Below are positions 3,001 through 52,885 of a DNA stretch of 64,000 bases, piece after piece (within the stretch, counting starts at the first letter, position 1; every line of letters begins with the position of its first letter). The translations under genes were made by a program, and so were the position numbers. This DNA comes from Chryseobacterium taklimakanense. Lineage in GTDB: Bacteria; Bacteroidota; Bacteroidia; Flavobacteriales; Weeksellaceae. Location: NCBI RefSeq assembly GCF_900187185.1, contig NZ_LT906465.1, forward strand, positions 1,054,001-1,118,000, in the 5' to 3' direction. The notes below the pieces were generated by a model. That model searched no databases. It was not told the origin of the DNA and saw only the letters and a program-made list of their open reading frames with translations.

Positions 3001-3178
3001 CACTTTTGATATGGGAAGCATCTTCATAACCTTGCTGTATTAAGTCTTTTATAAACTCCTTTTCCAGGTCTGCTTCGGTTTGGTAAACTGCAGGCGCTTC
3101 ATGTACGGAAGATATTTTAACGTATTTATCTAGGACGATGAAGTTGTTGGTTTCGGCGATGGTATTATACTGTGACAT
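71..3178 (-). CDS. hsdR: type I restriction enzyme, R (motor-nuclease) subunit
   Basis: The 1035-residue subunit translocates DNA using ATP and cuts it when the complex meets unmethylated target sites. A PD-(D/E)xK-type nuclease lies near the N-terminus, with D154 and the E168-L-K170 motif. A superfamily 2 helicase motor follows, with Walker A TTGSGKT at 311-317, a DEAH box ([10 protein letters not shown], about residue 410) and the later motif [10 protein letters not shown]. The C-terminal 250 residues are the charged helical part that docks to HsdM/HsdS. The length is normal for the family. The start overlaps the end of the anticodon nuclease gene by 14 bases, so the two are probably translationally coupled. 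It is the last clear gene of the hsd operon and looks intact. Confidence 0.97.
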
Positions 3179-4370
3179 TTTCTTCTTCTGTTGTATTATT
3201 TTTATGGTCTTTAAAACGATAATTCGTTTTGATTTGTTTTACCAAGTAAATTAAGACTCTTTTATCGTTGTCGTTTATTACGGTCGTTTCTTCCCCTGAA
3301 AATTTGCTGTGACTTGAAAGATTGATGATTCGATTATAATAAGCTTCTTGCGATTCGGCAGGTAGAAGTTCCTTCCACTTATTATAGCCTAAAAATGTAG
3401 ACATTTTTTCCAAAATATTTCTTAAAAAATTAAAGTGATATTTCTGAATATTTTCCGGTGTAGTTATAAGTTTTTCCAATTCTGATAAAAGGAATAAGTG
3501 ATAAGAAAATGGCGAATCATTATTTTGGTTTTTTAAATAATAAGTTCCATCCTCCAACTTTTCTAATATATATTTTGAAGAGTGTTTTGGTTTGTAGTTA
3601 TATTTCGGTTCTGCGTTATTAAACTCATTAAATAAGACATTATAAAATAACGGGTTGTGAGTTGTAATTATAAATTTAATTTCAGATTGGCTCCATTTAA
3701 TTAATTCCGCAATATTAACTGCCAACTCAATTAAATGGGTTTCATCTAATGAACTTACAGGATCATCAATAAACACGTATTTCAAATCATTAAAAACATC
3801 GGTCGCTCTATCTGATTTTTCAGGAATGTTTAACACATCAATAGTTTCTTCTAATAAACTATAAAAAACACTCCAAATAAAGCAGCTTTCCTCCCCCTTA
3901 GAAATTTTTATATTTTCTGGCGCTTCATCATTACCTCGTTCAAAAGAAAAATGGACTTCAGAAAATGCCGGGATAATTATGTCTTTTTCTGCAGCATCTT
4001 TTATACTGTATGCTTCATTAAATTTCGGTGTCAACTTAGCACTGGTATAGCGTTGAAAATGTGTTGTTATGCTCGCTTCTTTCCCTTGGTCTACCAAAAC
4101 CCAATTGGTGTAATTATTTGGCTGTATCTTCAGTTTTCTATCAGAATCATACTGCAAGTCATTATCCCAATAAAATAAATCCTCAGTGAATGCATTATAA
4201 TACAATACTTTTACTTTTTCATCTTCGGTTTCACTGGATTTTGGAGAAATCAATTCTTTAAACTCGCGGGAAAGTCTTGTTTTTCCGGTTCCGTTAAAGG
4301 CATAGATTAACTGCACCTTTTTATTGGCGTCTTTTAAATCTTGAGCTATTTCCCGTAAAGTTTTTCCCAT
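3165..4370 (-). CDS. prrC: PrrC-type anticodon nuclease
   Basis: This 401-residue protein matches E. coli PrrC in length (about 396), in its opening MGKTL..IAQ and in [17 protein letters not shown]. An ABC-type ATPase comes first: Walker A NGTGKT at 26-31, signature SKGEES at 157-162, Walker B with IDDPVSSLD at 201-209 and the H-loop TTHNP with H238. The C-terminal nuclease region carries R317, E321 and H354, with nearly the spacing of the known PrrC triad R320/E324/H356. PrrC cuts tRNA-Lys at the anticodon. In E. coli it is held silent by the type I enzyme and released when a phage protein inhibits that enzyme. Here it sits between hsdS and hsdR as in the prr locus. Its ATG overlaps the hsdS stop by one base. 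Family and residues are read from the sequence; activity is inferred. Confidence 0.92.
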
Positions 4371-4976: not shown

Positions 4977-5588
4977 TTACCCCCCCCCTATTTCATTGAA
5001 ATCCAACAACTTATCGCGGTAATGCTCGTATTGCTTTTTTCTTAACTCAATTTCTTTGGAAAGTTCGCTGATGATGGCGGTATTTTTTTCCGTGAGCTCA
5101 TCCAAAATGCGCACAATCTCTCTCTGAATTTCCAAAGACTTTTCAGGATTTTCAGGGCAGGGAATTGGCATTTTCTTTAATGAAAAATTACTAATCCATT
5201 GTCGTTTATGGTCTCCATCAGAAGAATCTATTGGTAATGAATTGAGCCAATAATAAAAATATTTTAATGAAATAATAGAGTCATCAATTGGTAATAAAAT
5301 TTTCATTGCAGATGATTTTGCTTTAAAATCGAAATCTACCCATTTATTTGCTGTTGTAAAGTCATCGAAAATTATTACTGGTGACTTTGACGCTTCATAT
5401 ATACCCGTATCTTCGCTAGTATAGCCCAAAATAAATGTTTTACCAGCAGTTAACACAGGTGTACTAAAAGTTGGATGATAATTTTTAGTTCTCACCAAAT
5501 AATTTGTTGGTTGCAAATAGTCAATATACTCACCAACTGTCCTCATTTGAACATCAACTCCCTCCAATAATTTTTCTAAAATACTCAT
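4977..5588 (-). CDS. hsdS: type I specificity subunit, first half (target domain 1)
   Basis: These 203 residues are the N-terminal half of HsdS: one target-recognition domain (about 1-150, including a PVLTAGKTFILGYT stretch and the WISNFSLKKMPIPCP end common to TRDs), then the central conserved helix (EIQREIVRILDELTEKN.. to YEHYRDKLLDF). The protein ends in three glycines encoded by the G9 run. Half-length S proteins of this form are known in some systems to pair with themselves and recognise a symmetric split target, so the truncated product may be active. The start overlaps the rhuM end by four bases (ATGA). Confidence 0.9.
   Translation of the reverse strand: MSILEKLLEGVDVQMRTVGEYIDYLQPTNYLVRTKNYHPTFSTPVLTAGKTFILGYTSEDTGIYEASKSPVIIFDDFTTANKWVDFDFKAKSSAMKILLPIDDSIISLKYFYYWLNSLPIDSSDGDHKRQWISNFSLKKMPIPCPENPEKSLEIQREIVRILDELTEKNTAIISELSKEIELRKKQYEHYRDKLLDFNEIGGG
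4980..4988 (-). repeat. G9 homopolymer switch inside hsdS
   Basis: On the coding (minus) strand this is nine consecutive G followed directly by TAA, so the first half-gene ends in Gly-Gly-Gly-stop. With eight G the reading becomes GGT AAA TGG TTC AAA ATG, which joins both hsdS halves into about 405 residues. With ten G the frame stops at a TGA shortly after the run. One length in three therefore gives the full protein. Runs of this length are known to vary by slipped-strand mispairing, and a poly-G run at the same place in neisserial NgoAV hsdS changes DNA specificity. Confidence 0.9.
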
Positions 5589-16564: not shown

Positions 16565-18304
16565 AATCCGTCTCATAACTTGATGAGATGGATTTTTTTT
16601 GTAAGAGGACTTTTAATTCTTGAGGTAAAGACATGTTTGAAGGCGGCCTTTTAGGCCACTTTCTTCCTTAGGTTGTGTGCAAGAGCGTGTAATCCGAACT
16701 CTATTTCAACTTTTTTGAGGGATTTTAGTGTAAACCTTCTAAACTGGTGGGCGTGTTTCATGTGGGCGAAGACGGCTTCCACGTCATAGCAGCGCCGTTT
16801 GCGTTTCCTGATGCCTTCGTCGCTTTTAAGGAGTTCCCGGACTTTTTCCCTGTGCCGCTCCAGATTGTGGTTGCGCTCCAGACTTCGGTTGTTTTTCGAG
16901 CCGTGGCACATGCTGCGTATCGGGCAGCCTTCGCAGTTTTTTTGCCTGGTAGTGCGAAAGTTTTTGCTCAAAGCCGTTCTTGGTTCTCCTGCTGCTTTCG
17001 TGGGTTTTCTCCATCCGCTGTCCCATCGGGCAGACATAAAAATCCATTTCTTCGTTGTAGTGAAGGTTTTCCTTGCTGAAGGTTTTATGTTTCTGCTGGT
17101 AGTTCTGGTCCTGTTCCTTGTCGAAGGTGTTGTACTTTACATAGGCTTCAATGCCGCCCTGCTCAAGATATTCGTAGTTTTCCTCGCTGCCGTAGCCCGC
17201 ATCTGTGGTGATGCTTTCAAGCCCGGCGAAAACTTCTTCTCCGTAAGTTTCTTTAAAACCCTCCAAATGATCAGGAAGCGTCGTGCTGTCGGTGGTCTGC
17301 TGGTGGATGCTGTAGTGCAGGATAAACTGGTTCTCGGTGGAGATCTGTGGATTGTACCCCGGCTTGAGCTGTCCGTTCCCCATATGGTCGTCCTTCATCC
17401 TCATGAAGGTGGCATCGGGATCGGTTTTGCTGTAGGAGCCTCTTTCGCCTAAAATCTCTTCCTGAAGTTTGTACTTCTCCAGGTTCTGTTCAAAATTATT
17501 TTTAATATAACGAAGTTTGGCTTTGGCTTTTGCTTTCCCCTTCTTGTCCGGGGTATCGCTGCCGCTGAGCTTTCTGTCGATACTTTCCACGGTTTCACGG
17601 ATTTTCTCTTTGCTGATTTTGGTAAACTCCGGCGGCTCGGGATCCCTGTCCTCGGATGCGGCAATGTTTTGCGCGTAGGTCCAGAGTTCTTCCAGCTGCC
17701 GGAGCATCTTTGCTTTGTTGGTTTCTATAGATTTTTTCCACACAAAAGTATATTTTCCTGCCTGTGCCTCTATCTTGGTGCCATCCGTATACATTTCTTT
17801 CAGAGTAACGAGTCCTTCGTCTGCCAAAAGCAGGACGACCTGCCGAAAAATATCCTTGAAGGCATCCTGAAGGCGCTGGCTTCTGAAACGTGCAATGGTG
17901 TTATGGTCTACCATCTTCATTCCCGAAAGCCACATGAAGTTGACATTCTCGCGGACCAGCTTTTCAATCCTGCGGCTGGAATAGGTGTTTTCCATATAGG
18001 CGAAAACCATAATCTTGAGCATCATCTTCGGGTGGTAGCTCGGATTGCCTTCTTTTTTATAGGCTTTTAATAACGGTTCGATCTTTATCTTCTCAATGAT
18101 ATCGTTAACCACCCGAACCGGATGAGATTCCGGGATCAGGTCCTCAAAAGTTGGGGGAAACAAAAACAGCTGTGATTGATTATAGTCTTTGAAATTCATA
18201 CATCGTATTGATTACCAGTACAATATACGAATTAATCTGAAAATAAACAACACTCTCTTGAAAAAAACCAAAAAAAAATCTGCCTCAGTTGTGAGACAGA
18301 TTCA
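16565..18304 (-). mobile_element. IS1182-family insertion sequence
   Basis: The element spans about 1.74 kb. Its two ends are imperfect inverted repeats. The left end reads AATCCGTCTCATAACT; the right end, read inward, gives AATCTGTCTCACAACT. Each end also folds on itself into a hairpin and is followed inside by a T run. The single transposase gene is described separately. I could not see a convincing target duplication, so the exact ends are good to a few bases only. It sits between the susC promoter region and the mobile-element gene at 18318. Confidence 0.8.
16651..18199 (-). pseudogene. IS1182-family transposase, frameshifted
   Basis: The first reading frame (18199 down to about 16943) starts MNFKDYNQSQLFLFPPTFEDLIPESHP, typical of the family, and holds the first two catalytic aspartates (YTDGTKIEA and TTDAGYGSEENY). 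The rest, including NCEGCPIRSMCHG and the catalytic glutamate in CYDVEAVFAHMKH, is in another frame. The two frames join if a seven-A run on the coding strand (16937-16943) is read as six. As written, the first frame lacks the glutamate and ends in unrelated residues. It may be dead, rescued by slippage on the A run, or affected by a sequencing error. The joined length of about 515 residues is normal. Confidence 0.85.
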
Positions 18305-18317
18305 AATAATTTTTAGT

Positions 18318-18902
18318 CTACCTACTCTCATACCCCTCCTTAAACTTCAAGAACTTTTCTGCGTCTTTAGGATTTTTCTTCATCCATTTTTTCATCAGCG
18401 TGGTGTTATGTTCCAGCTGCTTTACCTGCTCGGTTTCATAAATCGCCTTGTTTTCATTCTTAATTTCGGAAAGTATTTCCTCCCGAACCTCGGTCTTGGT
18501 GCGGATGCTCTCTCGGTACCAGTTTTTTCCGAGATAAACAGTTGCTGTTAAAATAAAAAATGCAACCAGCAATATAGCCAGGATTCCGAAAAACCAATAT
18601 TTAACAGTATCTGATTTCTGATGGAATTTTTCCAGATGCTTTATAACGTCCGGAGATAATTCTGCGATAATATTGTTGGGGATGGATTTGAGCAATTCCT
18701 GCCGTTTTAGATTTTCTTGATGTGCCAGTGCTTGGATTTTCTTTACATCCTCCTTGATGTCGCAGTACATGTGGAAAATCGCCTTCCCCGAAATTTCTAC
18801 CGCCTTATTACTTTCTATGACGCGGTGCAAAAGTTCGATGCCTGCATCTTGTGAAGAATAATTTTCTGTATTCTCTTGGTTGTTAAATTCGTTGTTGTTC
18901 AT
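18318..18902 (-). CDS. mobile-element membrane protein of unknown function
   Basis: 194 residues. The first half is polar and helical (HRVIESNKAVEISGKAIF.., IQALAHQENLKRQELLKSIP). One membrane segment follows (YWFFGILAILLVAFFILTATVYL, about 102-124), then a charged helical tail rich in K and E. No family name is known to me. It lies 31 bases downstream of the relaxase gene, so a role in mobilization or in coupling to the conjugation channel is plausible. The last 100 residues are duplicated at 8300-8635. Its stop lies only 14 bases from the end of the IS. Confidence 0.75.
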   Translation of the reverse strand: MNNNEFNNQENTENYSSQDAGIELLHRVIESNKAVEISGKAIFHMYCDIKEDVKKIQALAHQENLKRQELLKSIPNNIIAELSPDVIKHLEKFHQKSDTVKYWFFGILAILLVAFFILTATVYLGKNWYRESIRTKTEVREEILSEIKNENKAIYETEQVKQLEHNTTLMKKWMKKNPKDAEKFLKFKEGYESR

Positions 18903-18933
18903 TTTGTTTTTTTTTGATGTTTTTTTTAAAGAC

Positions 18934-19842
18934 CTATCGCCTCCTTTTTCTCTTCCTCAGCAATTCGTCGTCAGCCGCCGGTGTGTAGCTCGGTTTGAGC
19001 AGTTCCTTCACGGCATTCTCAATCTCCTTGAGGGATGATTTTTCCGGATTTTTTATTTCGTTCGTTTGTGGATTACTCTGACTGAAAATTGCCGACTGGT
19101 GGCTTTCCGCATTCCAGTTTAGAATTTCTTTGATGTCCTTAATCTTCAGTTTACTGGTGATCTCCGACAGTTTGTAACCGGGATGATACTGCCTCTGGGT
19201 TTGGTCGTTTATGTCCTTTAATCTAACAATCCGCATCCCCGAAATACCGTCCTTCACATTCTGCGAGAGCGTCACTCTGTAACCGCATCTCCGCATATAA
19301 TCCACCAAGTCGTCAAAATTTCTTGAGACCTTCAGACAGTTTTGCAGAACTTTCAGCATCTGCTGCTTTTTCTCTTTCCCTATTTCCACATCTGTTTTAA
19401 GGTTCATCTCTTTGCAGACATTTCTCACTGATTCACCGAAGCGCTTTCCGATATTGGCAGATTTTACCGTGCATTTACCATAAATATCTATGCGGTTCAC
19501 GATGAAGTGGATATGTTTCTGCTTCGTGGAATTGTGGACATCCAGGACGACCTGGTTATTTTCCGTAAGTCCCACATCCTTCAATGATTTTAAAGCCAGT
19601 TCCTTCAACTCTTCGTTCGTCAGACTGTCGCCGACTTCCTTTGTTGGAGATATGTAACCCGTCAAAGCCCATTTCTTTACATTCGGATTTCTCTCGGCAA
19701 TAAACTTCATTTCCGCAAACTGTTCCTCCGGTGTTGTTGAAAGCAGGTTGTTGGAATAAACACATTCCGCCGTGCCTTTGTCATTGCCGTTGTATTCAAT
19801 CGCTATCTTACTGATCCTCCTCGTCGTTGCCGAATTGTTCAT
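18934..19842 (-). CDS. relaxase / mobilization nuclease
   Basis: 302 residues. The metal-binding triad of a MobA/VirD2-type (MOBP-like) relaxase is visible as H103-(6)-H110-x-H112 in DVHNSTKQKHIHFIVNRID. The motif ECVYSNNL near residue 29 could supply the attacking tyrosine. The fold typically nicks one strand at oriT, stays bound to the 5' end and pilots the DNA through a helper conjugation system. The C-terminal part is short and ends in a basic KRKRRR, so no helicase or primase domain is fused. The start lies inside the end of the RHH protein gene (35-base overlap), as is usual for relaxase/accessory pairs. Confidence 0.9.
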   Translation of the reverse strand: MNNSATTRRISKIAIEYNGNDKGTAECVYSNNLLSTTPEEQFAEMKFIAERNPNVKKWALTGYISPTKEVGDSLTNEELKELALKSLKDVGLTENNQVVLDVHNSTKQKHIHFIVNRIDIYGKCTVKSANIGKRFGESVRNVCKEMNLKTDVEIGKEKKQQMLKVLQNCLKVSRNFDDLVDYMRRCGYRVTLSQNVKDGISGMRIVRLKDINDQTQRQYHPGYKLSEITSKLKIKDIKEILNWNAESHQSAIFSQSNPQTNEIKNPEKSSLKEIENAVKELLKPSYTPAADDELLRKRKRRR

Positions 19843-20284
19843 GCTTGATGATTTGTTGGTAGAGGTATTCCCGGATCAACCTCGTTGTGGTTTGAATTTC
19901 CTCAAGGATCTCTTTCTTGTTTTCAAACTCATTCCATTCTCTGTTCCGGAGCAGATTGGATATCCTTATAAAATTGTTGCCGTAATTCAACAGAACCGCG
20001 TCGGTTTGAAACTCGTTTATTTTGAGTTCTTTTTCGGTTGAAACCAGTCTTAAATATTTTGATATTTTGAGTTTGTAGAAGTCAGCCTCCTTTTGAATTT
20101 TCTCAAACTCTTTTTCGGTAAAACGAACTGAGACTACCTTCGAAAATTGGTTCGCCGTCTTCTTTTTCAAACCTCCCTTTCGACCAATTTCTCGGAACCG
20201 TTTCTTTCTTTTTTCTTCTGCAACCTTTGCAATTTGCTGCTCGGAAACCTGTCTGACAAACTGTTTTAAAAAGTCATTTTTCAT
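19808..20284 (-). CDS. relaxosome accessory protein (MobC-like, ribbon-helix-helix)
   Basis: 158 residues. A basic N-terminal helix (EEKRKKRFREIGRKGGLKKKT) precedes a ribbon-helix-helix core (VVSVRFTEKEFEKIQKEADFYKLKISKYLRL), then a helical MobC-like tail (LNYGNNFIRISNLLRNREWN...LIREYLYQQI). Proteins of this type bind oriT and load the relaxase. The gene directly precedes and overlaps the relaxase. The 237 bases upstream hold a strong hairpin that could be oriT. Confidence 0.85.
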   Translation of the reverse strand: MKNDFLKQFVRQVSEQQIAKVAEEKRKKRFREIGRKGGLKKKTANQFSKVVSVRFTEKEFEKIQKEADFYKLKISKYLRLVSTEKELKINEFQTDAVLLNYGNNFIRISNLLRNREWNEFENKKEILEEIQTTTRLIREYLYQQIIKHEQFGNDEEDQ

Positions 20285-20391
20285 CTTGTGTTTATTTTGT
20301 GTTTAATTTTTTTATGATTATAAATTACTGGCTTGAATTCCATTTCCAAACAAGTGTTTCCGACGACAGGAGGAAGCCAAAAAGCCCGATT

Positions 20392-20420
20392 TTTACGACA
20401 AGCCCCACGCTTGTTGTAAA
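20392..20420. other. candidate oriT hairpin
   Basis: A 12-base-pair stem (one G-T pair) closes a five-base loop CCCAC; the core is CGACAAGC...GCTTGTTG. It lies in the 237-base gap between the primase gene and the mobilization genes, where relaxase nick sites usually lie in such elements. A second, looser inverted repeat TGGGTA...TACCCA (20424-20464) is next to it. The position supports oriT; no nick site can be read directly. An attenuator is the alternative. Confidence 0.4.
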
Positions 20421-20521
20421 CATTGGGTACTTTTTGCACTAGACACATGGCAAGTTTTTACCCAGCCTTTTTAGAGCATTCCACCTGTGCTTATTTTGCG
20501 CAGGCCGGCTTGTATAAATCT

Positions 20522-21439
20522 TCATCTTTTTCTCCTGTAAATATTCTGGTTTTCCTCGGACTCGTGTATGGCTGTTTGATTTTTTTCAAGCTTATTTTCA
20601 AGCGTCTTTTCTTCCTGTGATATCAGGAAATCATTCAGATCTTGATGAGGGAAATATTCATTCGAGCGGTCATCTGCCTCCGGGAATATTTTCAAAATTG
20701 AATCCCTGCACTGTTCGCCGGCGCGGTCGTTATCCAGGTACATTTCGACAGATTTATAATTTCCAAAAAGCCCTGATGTCTTGTGAACCATGGCGACAGA
20801 ATTCAGAATTAGATAGTCGGAAGGTGTCTTTTCCGGTTCTAAAATTTTAAGGGAGAGGTAGTCGGTAAATCCCTCGAAAACCTTGAGGTTTTCAGAATTA
20901 TTTTTTATCGTGGTGATATCCTTTTTTCCAAGACAGATTTTGGAAAACCTGCTGCGGATCTCGTAGCCTCCCGAATCGTTTTTGAAACCCAGCCCAAAAT
21001 ATCTTTTGTCGTTAATCCGGTAGTGGACTTCGCTCAATGCCGATTTTTGTGACTCGAGTTTTCTTGATTTCAAATAATCTAACAATGCCGGATGACTAAC
21101 TTCTTTTACTTCAAGAATCTCGTTTTTCTTTTCAGCAGTAATTGCTTCCGTCACACTCGGCTTTTTATAAGGAAAATCGAAACGAGAAAGATATTCCAAC
21201 GCATCCGATACCGAGCATCGCTTAATGGCTTGGACGATGGAGACATTGTCGTACATCATTCCCGTTCCAAAGTCGAAGGCCGTATTTTTAGTAAAATTTA
21301 CGACCAAGCTCGGTGTGCGCTCCTCGCGGTCTATCGCATGATAGAATGCGGATTTAGCGTTGTCTTTGCTCGGGAAAAGAGAAAAACTCTCAAGGACTTC
21401 CCGGATGCTGATATTTTCGTTAGCTTGTTTGCAGTTCAT
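20522..21439 (-). CDS. Toprim-domain primase of the mobile element
   Basis: 305 residues. The N-terminus resembles a CHC2 primase zinc domain (REERTPSLVVNFTKNTAFDFGTG), but the zinc cysteines are absent, as in other element-borne primases. The Toprim part has E189 in LKVFEGFTDYLS, the acidic D236-N-D238 in YLDNDRAGEQC and a late HQDLNDFL. It likely primes replication of the excised element or of transferred single-stranded DNA. It stands alone between the mobilization genes and the VirE-type ATPase gene. Confidence 0.88.
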   Translation of the reverse strand: MNCKQANENISIREVLESFSLFPSKDNAKSAFYHAIDREERTPSLVVNFTKNTAFDFGTGMMYDNVSIVQAIKRCSVSDALEYLSRFDFPYKKPSVTEAITAEKKNEILEVKEVSHPALLDYLKSRKLESQKSALSEVHYRINDKRYFGLGFKNDSGGYEIRSRFSKICLGKKDITTIKNNSENLKVFEGFTDYLSLKILEPEKTPSDYLILNSVAMVHKTSGLFGNYKSVEMYLDNDRAGEQCRDSILKIFPEADDRSNEYFPHQDLNDFLISQEEKTLENKLEKNQTAIHESEENQNIYRRKR

Positions 21440-21486
21440 TTTTTGTGTTTTTTAAAGTTTATTTTTTTTATATCCAGTTATGTTTT

Positions 21487-21678
21487 TACCGTTTTTCCAT
21501 ACCTGCCTACCTAAATATTGAATATCAGTTAGTTATATCATTTTATAACTTACCTTGTTGTTACCTGTTAATTGGATCCCTTCTTTAACGATGGTAGTTT
21601 AGGTAAAAACTTAGCTATTTTATTACCTTGATAAAAATTTGAAAATGAGTTATGTAAGTCCACTTAGGTAAGTAGGTA
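21487..21678. repeat. cluster of TACC/GGTA boxes, possible replication origin
   Basis: Within about 190 AT-rich bases between the primase and ATPase genes there are nine TACC/GGTA cores in both orientations. Several are embedded in TTACCT or AGGTAA: at 21487, 21500, 21508, 21551, 21562, 21602, 21624, 21667 and 21675. The two ends mirror each other (CCTGCCTACCTAA against TTAGGTAAGTAGG). Such spacing beside replication genes suggests iterons bound by an initiator. It could also be an operator array. Confidence 0.45.
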
Positions 21679-21712
21679 GGATAAATTGAATGTCAAGGAT
21701 TTAAACTTTCTT

Positions 21713-22870
21713 TCAGTCAATCTTTCTTCGGATCAGGTAGCCGTAAACCTGCAGTTTCGGATGCTTGATTCTTTCATACTTGAGCCTGGTGAGCGCCTTT
21801 CCGACCTTGATGTTGTTCAATCTTAAATTCAGGGCGTTGTTCATTGCCACAACGATGTCCGTCGCCGTAAGAAAGTCCTTGATGTCCTTCGATTTCTCGA
21901 AGTGTGCGGAAACGATTTCCTGCTCAAGTGAAAGCTGGGAAAACTGCTCGTTCCTCAGCTCATTAGCCTCTATGTCCGAGAGCGTCATTTCCGGTTGGTA
22001 ATTTTTTCTTTCAAAAGCATTGTGGTACGCCTGCGCCCATACCTTGTCTATGTCTATTTCCTTGGAATAATTGAAGTCAATGCTTAAAACTTCGAAAACC
22101 AGCCACCTTACGCTTCCTGTCTCGTCGGTAAGGAAATCTGTTCTGTTGGTGGAGGCAACAAAGGAACATATCCTATCCATGTTCTCCGGCCTCCGTCCGT
22201 AAGGCACCCTTACTTTTGCGCCGCCCATCGAGATGAAGGATTTCAGCGTGTTGACATCCGATTTGGACAGGACGGCCAATTCGTCGGCATTGAGGATAAA
22301 GTTTTTGCAGATAGCGATGATGCCGTCCTTGTCCACTGTGACATTTTCGGAATAATAATCCCTGAGCCCGTCCGGGATGAGGAACCGCAGGAAGGTGGTT
22401 TTGCCCGTGTTCTGTTTGGAGCTTGCCAGCACGAGGCACTGCTTGTTGACATAGTCTTTCTTCAATGCGCAAAGCACGGCGCGGGTCAGCCACTTCTCGA
22501 GATGGTAGCGGAACGCTTCGCTGTCGTTGGTCCGAACAAATCCCGCCAGCTTCCGGATATGGTCTTCGCCGTCCCAGCCCGCGAGTTTTTTAAAGTATTC
22601 CGCTAACGGGTTGTATCTCTTTATCAGGTGGCTCCGTACGAGGATCTCCAACTTCTGCATGGTGATCTGCATCCCGGCCTGTACGAGTTCTATCAGCAGG
22701 GAGTTGATGTTTAGCTCTGTCCAGTCGTCCTTTCCCTTGAGCGATATTTCTATCTCCAGGGCGATGGCGTTAAAGCGAAGGTCATACTTGCTTTCAAGAT
22801 ACTTCATCACCATATCGAAAATGGTAGTGGTCTCGGAATCGGTTTGGTAGAGTTTAGGGGATTCGTCCAT
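21713..22870 (-). CDS. VirE-type (virulence-associated E family) ATPase/helicase
   Basis: About 385 residues from the ATG at 22870; an in-frame ATG at 22906 would overlap the previous gene by 35 bases. The helical N-terminal part leads to a P-loop domain with Walker A SSKQNTGKT (residues 151-158 from this start), LRDYYSEN, the acidic FILNADELAVL and the arginine-containing ASTNRTDFLTDETGSVRW. This is the PF05272-type ATPase common on Bacteroidota mobile elements, where it works with a Toprim primase in element replication. The C-terminus resembles a small winged helix (LNNIKVGKALTRLKYER). Confidence 0.88.
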   Translation of the reverse strand: MDESPKLYQTDSETTTIFDMVMKYLESKYDLRFNAIALEIEISLKGKDDWTELNINSLLIELVQAGMQITMQKLEILVRSHLIKRYNPLAEYFKKLAGWDGEDHIRKLAGFVRTNDSEAFRYHLEKWLTRAVLCALKKDYVNKQCLVLASSKQNTGKTTFLRFLIPDGLRDYYSENVTVDKDGIIAICKNFILNADELAVLSKSDVNTLKSFISMGGAKVRVPYGRRPENMDRICSFVASTNRTDFLTDETGSVRWLVFEVLSIDFNYSKEIDIDKVWAQAYHNAFERKNYQPEMTLSDIEANELRNEQFSQLSLEQEIVSAHFEKSKDIKDFLTATDIVVAMNNALNLRLNNIKVGKALTRLKYERIKHPKLQVYGYLIRRKID

Positions 22871-22871
22871 A

Positions 22872-23213
22872 TTAAAGATGTTTTCTTCTATATGACTTTT
22901 CTGCATCTTCCTCGATTTCCAGAATAGTTTTTCTTTTGCCGGAAGAAATCCAAGCCATCAATTCATCTTCAAAAAAATAGAGTTTCTTACCATTTTTATA
23001 GCACGGAATTTTGCGCTCGCGAACCAGCGTATAGATTGTTGGCTTTGCCTTTCCGATAATTCTTGAGGCAGCCTCAATATCAATCGGAATTCTTTTTTCG
23101 GGTTCCGGAGCGGAATGCTGACTTTTAACAATCTGTTTGATTTCTGCAATTTGATCCGAAAGAAATGCAACTGCTTTCGGCAGGTTTTCAAATGAAATTT
23201 CTGTCTGTTCCAT
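22872..23213 (-). CDS. helix-turn-helix (excisionase-like) DNA-binding protein
   Basis: 113 residues. The N-terminal part is a short helix (PKAVAFLSDQIAEIKQIV). The central part is a MerR/excisionase-type helix-turn-helix (IDIEAASRIIGKAKPTIYTLVRERKIPCYKNGKKLYFFEDELMAWI), the family called helix_turn_helix_17. Such proteins serve as excisionases or regulators on integrative elements. The stop is two bases before the likely ATPase start, so the two are co-transcribed. A long-stem hairpin separates it from the gene before it. Confidence 0.88.
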   Translation of the reverse strand: MEQTEISFENLPKAVAFLSDQIAEIKQIVKSQHSAPEPEKRIPIDIEAASRIIGKAKPTIYTLVRERKIPCYKNGKKLYFFEDELMAWISSGKRKTILEIEEDAEKSYRRKHL

Positions 23214-23249
23214 AATACTTGTTTTTGATTATTATGGCGCAAAGAAAAA

Positions 23250-23300
23250 AAGTGATTTCCCTGTGACGGCCGGAAACACCGGATCACAGGGAAATCACTT
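23250..23300 (-). terminator. long-stem hairpin terminator
   Basis: A perfect 17-base stem (arm AAGTGATTTCCCTGTGA and its complement) with a further inner CCGG pairing is followed on the minus strand by a run of T (CTTTTTTTC). It lies between the membrane-protein gene ending at 23323 and the HTH gene starting at 23213. A second palindrome (AATCACAA...TTGTGATT) lies at about 23304-23324. The unusually long stem and the shared ATCAC/GTGAT core could mean an operator as well as a terminator. Confidence 0.6.
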
Positions 23301-23322
23301 ATAAATCACAAATTAATTGTGA

Positions 23323-24111
23323 TTATTGATCACTATCGGGTTGTGTTAAGTCCTTTTTTATTTTGATTATACCTTTTCGTTCGTCATCTTTCAGGTGTTT
23401 TTTTATGCTTTCAACTTCGATATCCTTCAGTGTTTCCGCAAAAACGGTTTTTAAAAACACTGCTGTTTCTCTTTGATCGCGAATTCGGAAATGATTCCAT
23501 AAGTTCCAGCCGAAATGAAATAAATCAAGACTCGTCAAATCATTAATTGGTACAGATTTTAAATTTTCAAAATCACCATTTTCAGCATACACCGAAACCG
23601 ATTCGCAAAGGCTATCCAAATTTGCATCTGAAAGATAAAGCGCAAATTCTTCTCGAGTATAACTGAGCGCTATATTTTTCTTTTCTTCAGCAACTTTGGA
23701 AAGTGCTTCGGCTTTCACTGTACGAATTTCTTCAATTTTAATTAATGGTTCTTCCGTAGGTAATTCTAAGATTTCTTCTGGTTTCAGAATTTCTTCTGTT
23801 TCTAAAATTTCGGTAGAGTCGTCAAATTTTATTTGCTCTGAAATTACAGGTGAGTCTTCTATTTCGTTACTTTCGGTAATTTTTTTAGACCTTTTATTCT
23901 TTATTACCGAGTCTGAAACTTCGTTAAGAATAATCATAATTCCAGAATAGACAATAAATAAAACTGATACAACTGCCCACATAATTGCAGTACCTGTATA
24001 ATCATCACCTCCCGAATCTATATAAATTTTCCTCGCAATAATACCTACAACGACGCAACCCACCAAGACAGATCCGTACTTTAGAACATTTTCAAAAAAT
24101 TTAATATTCAT
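23323..24111 (-). CDS. mobile-element membrane protein of unknown function
   Basis: 262 residues. Two membrane segments lie near the N-terminus (about 13-27 and 42-63). A long acidic linker rich in E, I and L follows (about 75-145), then a cytoplasmic helical domain (TREEFALYLSDANLDSLCESVSVY..., LDLFHFGWNLWNHF). I recognise no catalytic motif. It lies eight bases after the integrase gene on the same strand and ahead of a strong terminator, so it is transcribed with the integrase. A link to element stability or transfer is a guess. Confidence 0.75.
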   Translation of the reverse strand: MNIKFFENVLKYGSVLVGCVVVGIIARKIYIDSGGDDYTGTAIMWAVVSVLFIVYSGIMIILNEVSDSVIKNKRSKKITESNEIEDSPVISEQIKFDDSTEILETEEILKPEEILELPTEEPLIKIEEIRTVKAEALSKVAEEKKNIALSYTREEFALYLSDANLDSLCESVSVYAENGDFENLKSVPINDLTSLDLFHFGWNLWNHFRIRDQRETAVFLKTVFAETLKDIEVESIKKHLKDDERKGIIKIKKDLTQPDSDQ

Positions 24112-24119
24112 CAGTCGAC

Positions 24120-25367
24120 TTATTTGGAATTGAGGTTTAACTTTATTGCGTTTGCCGCCTTGTTTTTAGATTCATCCACCACTTTGGCGTAAACCTGCGT
24201 CGTTTTTACATTGGTATGACCTAACATTTTGCTGACGGTGTAAATATCAGTTCCATTGGCTAATTGTAAAGTGGCAAAGGTGTGGCGGAAATTATGGAAA
24301 GTAATATTTTTGGTAATTCCGGCGCTTTCAATCCATTTTTTCAGAGGTCGGGAAATCCACGCTGAATTTGGCAATCCTTCAAAGACTAAATCATCCGGCA
24401 GTTTTCTTTCGCCGCAAAGTTCTACTGCCTGTTCCGAAATGGGCATATATTCCACGCCTTTCGTTTTTTGCTGTGTAAAATGGATTTTTGGCAAGCCACT
24501 TTCAACACTGATTTCCTTCCATTTTAGTTTTTGAATATCGGATAAGCGAAGCCCTGTTAGTGCAGAAAATAATGCAGCGCGCCTTAACACATCACTATCG
24601 CAATCTGTTGAAGCAAGTTTGTTAAGTTCTTCAATCGTCAAATATTCCCTTCTTGATTCTTCGTCAGCAATACCTTTTATTTTAGCAGAAATTTCCGATA
24701 AAAAATATCCATCTACGAACGCTTGCCTTAGCGCTGCTTTAAAAATTGAGAAATAAGTGCCGGCACTGTTTTTAGAAAGTGTGCCTTGTTTATTTCCACC
24801 TCGTGGGGCGGTCAAAAGATAGTTTTTAAAATTCTCGCAAAACTTAATGTCAATCTTGTAAAACGGAATAATTTCACCTCCAAACTCAGTCAAAAAGTGA
24901 ATGACGCGCTCCCAGTTAATTCTGATAGATTCAGAACTGTTTCTGTGGCGTTTTTTAATTAAACCTTCGAAGTACTTAACAAAATTTTCTTCTGACTTTT
25001 CTTTCTGTTCCGCCTGAAATTTATCAAGTTCGCTGTAGAGTTCCACAGTATCAAATTCTCTTTGGCGTAGCTTCCGAAGGGAATCTGCATAAATCATGGT
25101 TTCTTGGTCGGTTTTGCTTTTGCAAACAATAATTCCATTATCATCCCTTTTGGGTTTATAGGATACCGAATCTTCCTTTGTTCGCGCAGGTCTATTCTTG
25201 TCGAAGACCACCGTGGTAACACTGCGGTTCACATATTCCCGGATTCTCTGTAGATTCTTCTTTCCCGGAACACTCACTGGATAACTTTCAAGATAAATAT
25301 ACCATTCCTTGCGAAACTCTGCCTTACGAAGGCGCACAGTGACTTTGGTTTTAAGCAGTTTTTTCAT
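24120..25367 (-). CDS. tyrosine recombinase (integrase)
   Basis: 415 residues. An N-terminal arm-binding segment (about 1-60) and a SAM-like core-binding domain (about 125-225) precede the catalytic domain. The catalytic residues are R274 (TGLRLSDI), a lysine near 301-303, H358-x-x-R361 (FHNFRHTFA), H384 (MLGHTNVKTT) and the nucleophile Y393 (QVYAKV). It is complete and should integrate and excise the element. It overlaps the upstream regulatory gene by four bases. No tRNA target is visible; the nearby end of the element is next to dnaK. Confidence 0.95.
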   Translation of the reverse strand: MKKLLKTKVTVRLRKAEFRKEWYIYLESYPVSVPGKKNLQRIREYVNRSVTTVVFDKNRPARTKEDSVSYKPKRDDNGIIVCKSKTDQETMIYADSLRKLRQREFDTVELYSELDKFQAEQKEKSEENFVKYFEGLIKKRHRNSSESIRINWERVIHFLTEFGGEIIPFYKIDIKFCENFKNYLLTAPRGGNKQGTLSKNSAGTYFSIFKAALRQAFVDGYFLSEISAKIKGIADEESRREYLTIEELNKLASTDCDSDVLRRAALFSALTGLRLSDIQKLKWKEISVESGLPKIHFTQQKTKGVEYMPISEQAVELCGERKLPDDLVFEGLPNSAWISRPLKKWIESAGITKNITFHNFRHTFATLQLANGTDIYTVSKMLGHTNVKTTQVYAKVVDESKNKAANAIKLNLNSK

Positions 25368-51010: not shown

Positions 51011-51299
51011 CTGGGCATCAAAGGTTTTAATGTGTGAGTTTCTTTCTTCGCGGTCATCAAATCAGCCAAAAGACACGCTGACCCTTCCGAAACCTTCCGA
51101 ATCACGTTGGGTCAGTTTTTGACCCCCACGTGTTTTGTCAGTTCTGCAGCCGGGATGGAAAACGGCAACCAGAGCCTGCACCATCAAGATAAATCTCAGC
51201 CAAATATACTATAATTCATTAAAATCCGTGAACCGGCGTTTAACTTATTTTTAACTATTCAGGGTTATTTTTTACGTTAAACTTAACAGCTTTTGGTCG
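51011..51299. other. intergenic gap with one hairpin
   Basis: The gap separates the divergent HD phosphohydrolase and porX genes. The one structure I can support is CTGACCC (51078-51084) facing GGGTCAG (51109-51115), followed by five T on the plus strand. No gene reads into it from the left, so it is not an ordinary terminator. The rest is AT-rich. Confidence 0.4.
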
Positions 51300-51307
51300 T
51301 ATTTTTG
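51300..51307 (+). promoter_or_regulatory. putative -7 box of porX
   Basis: TATTTTTG fits TAnnTTTG, 33 bases before the porX ATG. A Shine-Dalgarno-like AAAGGAAAT lies directly before the start. Confidence 0.45.
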
Positions 51308-51340
51308 GACTTTACGCCACGTATAAAAAAGAAAGGAAAT

Positions 51341-52885
51341 ATGTCAGGAAAAATATTATGGATTGATGATGAGGTGGACCTGCTGAAACCACACATTGTT
51401 TTTCTTGAAAAGAAAGGTTATGCCGTAACGCCCGTAAACAACGTGAATGAAGCGCTGGACCTGATCGAAAATGAAAATTTTGAACTCACGCTTCTGGATG
51501 AAAATATGCCGGGAATTTCCGGAATTGAAGCCATCCCAATGATCAAAGGCAAAAACAGCGCCCTGAAGATCGTAATGGTGACCAAAAATGAAGAGGAGCA
51601 TATTATGGAACAGGCGATCGGCTCGCAGATTTCGGATTATATCCTGAAGCCGGTGAATCCGAACCAGGTTTTGCTCTCCTTAAAGAAAAATCTTCAGGAG
51701 GACACTTTGGTGGAACAAAAAACCATTCTGGAATACCAGCAGGAATTCCGCAATCTGAGCATGGAACTTTCCTACCTGCGGACTTACCAGGACTGGGCAG
51801 AATACTACCTGAAAATCCTGAACTGGGAAATCAAGTTTGACCGTGTTTTTGACAATGAGTTTGCCGATTTACTGCAGTCGCAGAAAGAAGAAGCGAACAT
51901 CCAGTTTGCCAAATTTGTAGAAAACCATTACGAGGACTGGCTCAACAGCAACGAAAAGCCGATGATGACCCACACTTTATTTAAAGATAAGGTAAAGGCA
52001 GAAGTGGAGCAGGACAAAGTCCTGCTGCTGGTGATCGACAACCTGCGGTATGACCAGTGGAAAGTGATTGAGCCGCTGTTCACCAGGTTTTACAACAAAA
52101 CTTCGGAAGATTATTATTACAGCATCCTGCCGACGGCAACACAGTATGCGAGAAACTCCTTTTTTGCAGGTCTGATGCCGTCGGAAATTGAAAAGCGCTT
52201 TCCCGACAAGTGGTTCAATGATAACGAGGAAGGCAATAAAAACGAATTTGAAAGGGATTTTCTGGAAGACCAGATGAAACGCCTTGGGCTTTCATCCAAA
52301 ACCATGAAGTATCTGAAAATCCTGAATGCCGATTTTGAGAGAAAAATTCTGGATGATTTCAACCAGCATAAAAACAATGATCTGCTGGTGATTGTGTACA
52401 ATTTCATCGATATTCTTTCGCACGCCAAAACCGACAACTCCATTGTGGACCAGCTGATCAGGGATGATAAAACGTTCCGATCGCTCACCTACAACTGGTT
52501 TGAGAATTCATCTTTAATTAAAATCATTAAAACGGCGGCTGAAAACGGCTTCAAACTGGTGATCACTACCGACCACGGCATGATCTATGTGAAGAAACCA
52601 AGCAAAGTGGTTGGCGACCGGGAAACCTCAACCAACATCCGCTACAAAACAGGACGGAGTCTGACTTATGAAGACTCTGATGTGTGGGCGGTTTCCAATC
52701 CTGAGAAAATGTTTTTGCCGAAAGGGAATTTAAGCTCCAAATATATCTTCGCCAAGAACAACATCTTCCTGGCCTATCCGAAGAACTACAACCACTTCGT
52801 GAATTACTATAAGGACACGTACCAACACGGCGGGATATCGCTGGAAGAATGCATTATCCCGATCAGCATCTTAGAACCCAAATAG
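51341..52885 (+). CDS. porX: type IX secretion response regulator PorX
   Basis: 514 residues from the ATG at 51341; the frame is open 16 codons further up, but that part overlaps the -7 box. Residues 1-120 are a receiver domain (ILWIDDEVD, phospho-acceptor D53 in LLDENMPG, MVTKNEE, DYILKPVNP). The rest is an alkaline-phosphatase-like PglZ domain (LLLVIDNLRYDQWKVIEPL, FIDILSHAKTD, LVITTDHGMIYVKKP). In Porphyromonas, PorX with PorY controls type IX secretion genes, and it also acts as a phosphodiesterase. It agrees with the presence of a T9SS cargo at 33490. Confidence 0.96.
   Translation: MSGKILWIDDEVDLLKPHIVFLEKKGYAVTPVNNVNEALDLIENENFELTLLDENMPGISGIEAIPMIKGKNSALKIVMVTKNEEEHIMEQAIGSQISDYILKPVNPNQVLLSLKKNLQEDTLVEQKTILEYQQEFRNLSMELSYLRTYQDWAEYYLKILNWEIKFDRVFDNEFADLLQSQKEEANIQFAKFVENHYEDWLNSNEKPMMTHTLFKDKVKAEVEQDKVLLLVIDNLRYDQWKVIEPLFTRFYNKTSEDYYYSILPTATQYARNSFFAGLMPSEIEKRFPDKWFNDNEEGNKNEFERDFLEDQMKRLGLSSKTMKYLKILNADFERKILDDFNQHKNNDLLVIVYNFIDILSHAKTDNSIVDQLIRDDKTFRSLTYNWFENSSLIKIIKTAAENGFKLVITTDHGMIYVKKPSKVVGDRETSTNIRYKTGRSLTYEDSDVWAVSNPEKMFLPKGNLSSKYIFAKNNIFLAYPKNYNHFVNYYKDTYQHGGISLEECIIPISILEPK

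Follow-up and report, generated by a model that had tools for sequence, protein, structure and literature searches.

The DNA analysed here, called the window throughout, is a stretch of 64,000 nucleotides of Chryseobacterium taklimakanense (GCF_900187185.1, contig NZ_LT906465.1, positions 1,054,001-1,118,000 of the forward strand), and all positions given below are window coordinates. Its minus strand carries, in this order, hsdM, rhuM, an hsdS N-half, an hsdS C-half, prrC and hsdR. The products of hsdM (8127-6580, 515 aa) and hsdR (3178-71, 1035 aa) are both matched over the curated cutoffs of their families, TIGR00497 at 7.4e-194 for the former and TIGR00348 at 4.4e-202 for the latter, which also matches EcoR124_C (1.5e-72). 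The rhuM product (6583-5585, 332 aa) matches Virulence_RhuM (1.4e-104) and PADLOC PDC-S05, and the two hsdS frames, an N-half of 203 aa (5588-4977; Methylase_S 1.6e-05) and a C-half of 198 aa (4966-4370; Methylase_S 2e-08), are each recognized by PADLOC type I specificity models. prrC (4370-3165) has an ATG start and encodes a 401 aa protein with an ABC-ATPase and a C-terminal anticodon-nuclease domain. Adjacent genes overlap by 1-14 bases, with 14 bases shared by the 3' end of prrC and the start of hsdR, and the only exception is a 10-base gap between the hsdS halves; such overlaps fit a single transcript for the operon. The original prediction of a gene order hsdM-hsdS-prrC-hsdR correctly placed prrC between hsdS and hsdR and missed both rhuM and the split in hsdS; the guarded enzyme had been taken to be an ordinary one, whereas its HsdS comes in two pieces that part at a poly-G run and is probably phase-variable, so that the guarded enzyme may change its target on DNA. 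Family score, alignment with the E. coli orthologue, conservation of the catalytic triad and operon context together strongly support the view that HsdM, HsdS and HsdR form a type IC-like restriction-modification enzyme and that the gene embedded among theirs encodes PrrC.

Elsewhere in the window, mobile-element genes stand in a row at 16826-25367 (a DUF772/DDE_Tnp_1 transposase, a MobA/VirD2-like relaxase, Toprim_2, a VapE-like gene and a phage-type integrase), and 51293-52885 encodes a PglZ domain joined to a response regulator, presumably resembling the type IX secretion protein PorX rather than BREX.

On its sequence, the product of 3165-4370 is confirmed as a PrrC-family protein. The best model on this ORF is PADLOC PrrC (PDLC02360, 474 bits, E=8.3e-143), with the next-best PADLOC family at 48 bits; Pfam gives AAA_13 (E=4.6e-17), and the NCBIfam models returned no match to it. 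Its identity is 57% with an E. coli protein of 396 aa annotated as "anticodon nuclease" (L004, NZ_CP157955.1), whose gene sits between hsdS and hsdR on the E. coli chromosome. The alignment with E. coli PrrC that had been proposed as a check brings R317, E321 and H354, all three present as claimed, into register with R320, E324 and H356 of the L004 protein, the numbers given to the E. coli PrrC triad (PMC2610378). The triad spacing, predicted to be that of E. coli, is identical from R to E (3 residues in both) and longer by one residue from E to H (32 in the window PrrC vs 31 in E. coli). The ATPase motifs, also correctly called complete, are conserved in the alignment and comprise Walker A (G27/G29/K30/T31), a signature at S157-GEE, Walker B with the D-loop (D202-D209), and H238. 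D285 aligns with E. coli Asp287, which is said to touch the wobble base (PMC3014915), and is kept as D in 98 of 101 aligned proteins. With 401 aa, one cysteine and no CXXC, the window protein falls within the published PrrC size range of 341-416 aa without a zinc-hook insert (PMC2610378).

Relatives were obtained by scanning genome contigs with a five-sequence alignment, and the best 80 of 526 were used, so that the sample is skewed to close relatives; they were picked with two peptide patterns from the N-terminal part, so conservation is free of selection bias in the C-terminal part only. These best-80 loci, four database loci, the window and other genomes supplied 112 PrrC proteins, of which 101 were aligned, 10 duplicates and one 115-aa fragment being left out. 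The R317 codon (3420..3422, minus strand) specifies a residue that is R in 101/101 aligned proteins, and the E321 (3408..3410, minus) and H354 (3309..3311, minus) codons specify residues that are E and H, respectively, in 100/101; the exception to both is L157, a 575-aa protein matching over fewer than 60 residues that is probably not a PrrC. R347 (codon 3330..3332, minus) is likewise R in 101/101 and forms with H354 an R-x6-H pattern of the HEPN-type Rx4-6H motif, a family to which PrrC has been assigned (PMC3710099). Among the 66 named prrC loci (from the best 80 of 526) that were testable, i.e. flanked by 3.6 kb or more on the upstream side and 1.5 kb or more on the downstream side, hsdM lies upstream and hsdR downstream in 65; in the single exception, L053, the hsdM match is farther off.

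By DNA match at low stringency, prrC is present in at least 21 of 5,426 E. coli genomes. Around the host, 47 of 199 genomes (host included) match PADLOC PrrC at E 0.001 or better, and 14 of the 199, the host among them, exceed 400 bits. Seven of the 13 non-host genomes above 400 bits (L091-L096 and L098) form a second PrrC branch in the host family, which shows 34-37% identity to the window PrrC and has a different, more distant hsdM alongside. L123, also of the host family, has a 115-aa remnant of prrC next to open reading frames for HsdM, HsdS and HsdR, which looks like loss of the nuclease from an operon whose restriction genes survived. In E. coli 21AR0133 (L003:8930) a C8 run lies within an open 439-aa prrC frame.

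The AlphaFold2 model of PrrC (59 rows) has a mean pLDDT of 74.5, and its ATPase head, approximately residues 1-285, resembles those of Rad50 and SMC proteins (E 9.3e-06 with Foldseek; with VIA, Z up to 12.5 and rmsd 3.5 over 209). pLDDT drops below 50 at residues 26-33 and 354-362, and the H354 loop is thus poorly placed in the model. Modelled alone (54 rows, pLDDT 80.0), the C-terminal part is predicted to be a helical bundle in which R317 and E321 would share a helix, R347 would lie on another, and H354 would follow just past the R347 helix (residues 38, 42, 68 and 75, respectively, in fragment numbering). In a second-look comparison of this fold HEPN toxins occupy the top five places (Z 7.1-6.3), scores that unrelated helical bundles can also reach; the top eleven hold in addition three more HEPN entries and AbiV, with two Vps28 entries interspersed. 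Foldseek with the PrrC C-terminal domain gave no match below E 1. Among solved structures, phmmer with PrrC found no sequence relative (one chance match, E 0.12), and a profile of 75 sequences found no PrrC relative at E up to 0.1.

As to the substrate, the host genome gave 40 tRNA matches, and ARAGORN, applied to the surroundings of the best of these (30 loci), identified tRNA-Lys with the anticodon UUU only, encoded by two genes. Both tRNA-Lys(UUU) genes have the loop CTTTTAA, which we take to be the loop of E. coli tRNA-Lys as well. E. coli PrrC is held latent with EcoprrI and cleaves tRNA-Lys, and its activation requires Stp, GTP and DNA carrying unmodified EcoprrI sites (PMC3014915). From homology and from published work on E. 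coli PrrC (PMC3014915) and Klebsiella PrrC (PMC11555353), we infer with good reason that the window PrrC would serve as a suicide guard like that of E. coli; tRNA-Lys is its probable target by analogy with other members of the PrrC family.

The two hsdS halves meet at a G9 tract (4980-4988, minus strand; C9 on the plus strand) that closes the first half just before its stop codon. Frame analysis indicates that 8 or 11 Gs would give a single hsdS frame of 405 or 406 aa, and 7 or 10 Gs a frame of 207 or 208 aa. Over both strands of the 2,764,880-base genome this tract is the only G run of 9 or more and one of only two of 8 or more; a first-order Markov expectation drawn from the window, a crude estimate, is ~10 runs of at least 9 and 41 of at least 8, so that long G runs look avoided in the host genome, with the hsdS tract retained. 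The ends of the hsdS halves are similar helices, identical at 26 of 45 positions, and alike helices at the half ends are needed for the pairing of half-HsdS subunits; in type IC systems half subunits pair to recognize symmetric sites, as in EcoDXXI, EcoR124I and NgoAV (PMC3874165). In NgoAV the loss of one G fuses the hsdS halves and alters specificity (PMC9577141).

The tract is not peculiar to the window. Ten G/C runs of at least 8 were found in the 80 named loci (best 80 of 526; 1,436,828 bases), and six of these lie at the hsdS half junction; of the other four, one is off-junction in hsdS (L080), one is in hsdR (L030), and two are elsewhere (L056 and L066). In all, nine Bacteroidota PrrC operons, window included, have a junction tract, two with hsdS fused and seven with it split. 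The fused pair carry G8 (L013, Prevotellaceae; L040, Bacteroidales), and the split operons besides the window carry G10 in Muribaculaceae (L023) and Paraprevotella (L030), C8 in Porphyromonadaceae (L024), G11 in Flavobacterium (L041), and G8 (L128) and G10 (L133, the same locus as L088) in the host family. A PrrC-less operon, L134, has a G9 junction tract with hsdS fused. Runs shorter than 8 were excluded, i.e. a G7 about midway along the open hsdS of L077 (Xenorhabdus) and C7 runs elsewhere in the hsdS of L072 and L141. A quick tree built from 100 PrrC proteins (L157 removed) requires six or more changes to account for the nine rows with a tract, a score matched by 1 of 500 shuffles, and the tract is thus clustered yet not confined to one clade; it forms one Bacteroidales cluster with the other rows scattered, a pattern that points to gain or loss more than once.

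Two further kinds of run were observed. In the Paraprevotella MAG a G8 within the open hsdR frame (L030:7685), beside the hsdS junction tract, is a possible second switch. In two PrrC operons (L152:3570 and L155:2565) a C9 lies in the second half of an open hsdS, where a slip would truncate HsdS.

A control search for HsdM relatives irrespective of PrrC, in 395 phylum and 296 family genomes, yielded 42 operons at 67-81% HsdM identity (the partial contig-end matches G492 and G504 being left out), of which 37 could be judged and five could not (L121, L145, L150, L156 and L157). The window is absent from the 37, the L123 remnant is counted among the 20 PrrC operons, and some of the 20 are named loci; L152 and L155 are among these 20, their off-junction C9 not being scored as a junction tract. 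No association of tract with PrrC was found in this set, a junction tract of at least 8 being present in 2 of 20 operons with PrrC vs 1 of 17 without (Fisher p = 1.0). Small as these numbers are, they suggest a trait of the type I family rather than of PrrC, in agreement with the listing of both NgoAV and EcoprrI as type IC (PMC3874165). Nor, by tblastn with the window RhuM as the sole query, is RhuM associated with PrrC in the control operons (rhuM in 5 of 20 with PrrC vs 6 of 17 without); the same query detected rhuM at 5 of the 71 named PrrC loci (from the best 80 of 526). A YhcG-type PDDEXK gene takes the place of rhuM at L013:7742-8869 and L024:1813-2865, and the hsdM-hsdS gap thus seems to accept varied cargo genes.

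Set against known systems, the locus resembles E. coli PrrC/EcoprrI in protein size, ATPase motifs, R/E/H triad and the D285 counterpart of D287, and it matches the EcoprrI order hsdM-hsdS-prrC-hsdR (PMC3014915) apart from the inserted rhuM. It differs in its 57% identity (to L004), in the rhuM insertion and in the hsdS split at poly-G, the E. coli loci L002-L004 having hsdS without a poly-G tract. The likeness to NgoAV of Neisseria gonorrhoeae lies in two hsdS frames with poly-G at the 3' end of the first, in a first half of 203 aa vs 208 in NgoAV, and in fusion of the halves by loss of one G (PMC9577141). The tract is 7G in NgoAV and 9G in the window, and switching and methylation have been demonstrated for NgoAV (PMC9577141), whereas the window switch is predicted from sequence; moreover, NgoAV comprises hsdM, hsdS1, hsdS2 and hsdR, and the term prrC is absent from PMC9577141, while the window operon has prrC. 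PrrC-like, R-M and RhuM-like genes have been published as neighbours (Anantharaman et al. 2013, PMC3710099), a combination shared with the window, whose poly-G hsdS switch goes without mention in the passages of that paper drawn on here. PrrC170 of Klebsiella quasipneumoniae, which is reported to act on tRNA-Lys and to block phages T1 and T7, is like the window protein a PrrC with a type I R-M system, and is 35% identical to EcoPrrC (PMC11555353).

It thus appears likely that the operon combines an orthodox PrrC guard with a probable NgoAV-like specificity switch, functions that are predicted for both. PrrC would be kept latent inside the Hsd complex, as in E. coli, and anti-restriction by a phage would trigger it to cleave tRNA-Lys, trigger and cleavage being those of the E. 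coli system. The G9 tract would probably slip during replication. In the assembled, split state HsdM would work with half HsdS, two copies of which would, like those of NgoAV, recognize a symmetric site; the HsdS fused by 8 or 11 Gs would recognize an asymmetric two-part one. The same PrrC guard would then ride on an enzyme that switches its DNA target from one cell to another, provided that both HsdS forms are active and that PrrC stays masked with the split as well as the fused form, as we suppose.

Other readings of the protein carry little weight. That the gene encodes RloC or another AAA_13 ATPase might be argued from Pfam, which assigns it merely to the broad AAA_13 family, and from weak additional PADLOC scores for PDC-S06 and AriA, but RloC is a protein of 658-897 aa with a coiled coil and a CXXC zinc hook (PMC2610378), unlike the 401 aa, single-cysteine window protein, which scores nearly tenfold higher with PADLOC PrrC than with the runner-up family and is encoded between hsdS and hsdR; this identity is exceedingly improbable and was dropped on the wrong size and on the PADLOC score that favours PrrC. 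A less remote alternative, still quite unlikely, is that an active PrrC has a target other than tRNA-Lys, or is silenced or triggered unlike E. coli PrrC. At 57% identity to its E. coli counterpart the specificity may have altered, and Stp-type trigger peptides are those of T4-like phages (PMC3014915); however, the residue said to touch the wobble base is retained as D285, and the Klebsiella PrrC, at just 35% identity to EcoPrrC, still acts on tRNA-Lys (PMC11555353).

The split in hsdS might be decay or a homopolymer miscall rather than a switch, the operon then being a plain EcoprrI-like one with hsdS really fused, or a dying one. Some sequencers miscall homopolymers, the tract length is known from one assembly, and a single assembly cannot fix the length of a homopolymer, so that the split state may be a miscall; most relatives, moreover, have one intact hsdS frame without the tract. 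But a miscall may shift the length by 1-2 and cannot create the tract, which has no equal among G runs of the host genome and recurs at the same spot in one operon without PrrC and in eight more that have it, and the hsdS halves are otherwise open, with a change of one or two bases sufficient to join the frames. Decay or miscall is accordingly judged unlikely, and a guard combined with a probable specificity switch remains the preferred reading.

Taken singly, the features are all known: a PrrC embedded in a type I operon, RhuM and PrrC together, and a poly-G hsdS. PrrC together with a phase-variable hsdS in one operon was not found in the open-licence literature, although a survey of SSRs in type I systems and the first NgoAV paper may mention it; open-licence reviews that name both PrrC and phase variation handle them separately in the passages concerned. 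A functional link between the hsdS switch and PrrC is a tentative idea, rather improbable as it stands, that derives from the fact that a slip would leave the chromosome unmodified at the new sites, and that DNA with unmodified sites is reported among the effectors that activate latent E. coli PrrC (PMC3014915). If such a link exists, each switch would bring the suicide nuclease near to firing; PrrC would then police switching, or cells that have just switched would stand ready to abort once a phage disables the enzyme as well.

For the biology of these systems, PrrC would guard the restriction enzyme and punish phages that disable it, and a phase-variable HsdS would alter the DNA that the enzyme attacks. 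The operon thereby poses the questions of whether a half-HsdS complex keeps PrrC silent, and of what becomes of PrrC when a switch leaves the host DNA unmodified. Should a living strain truly have the split state, then either half-HsdS masks PrrC, or masking is independent of HsdS, or PrrC is inactive; masking in the split state would therefore bear on the latency of PrrC, of which the papers drawn on here give an outline only.
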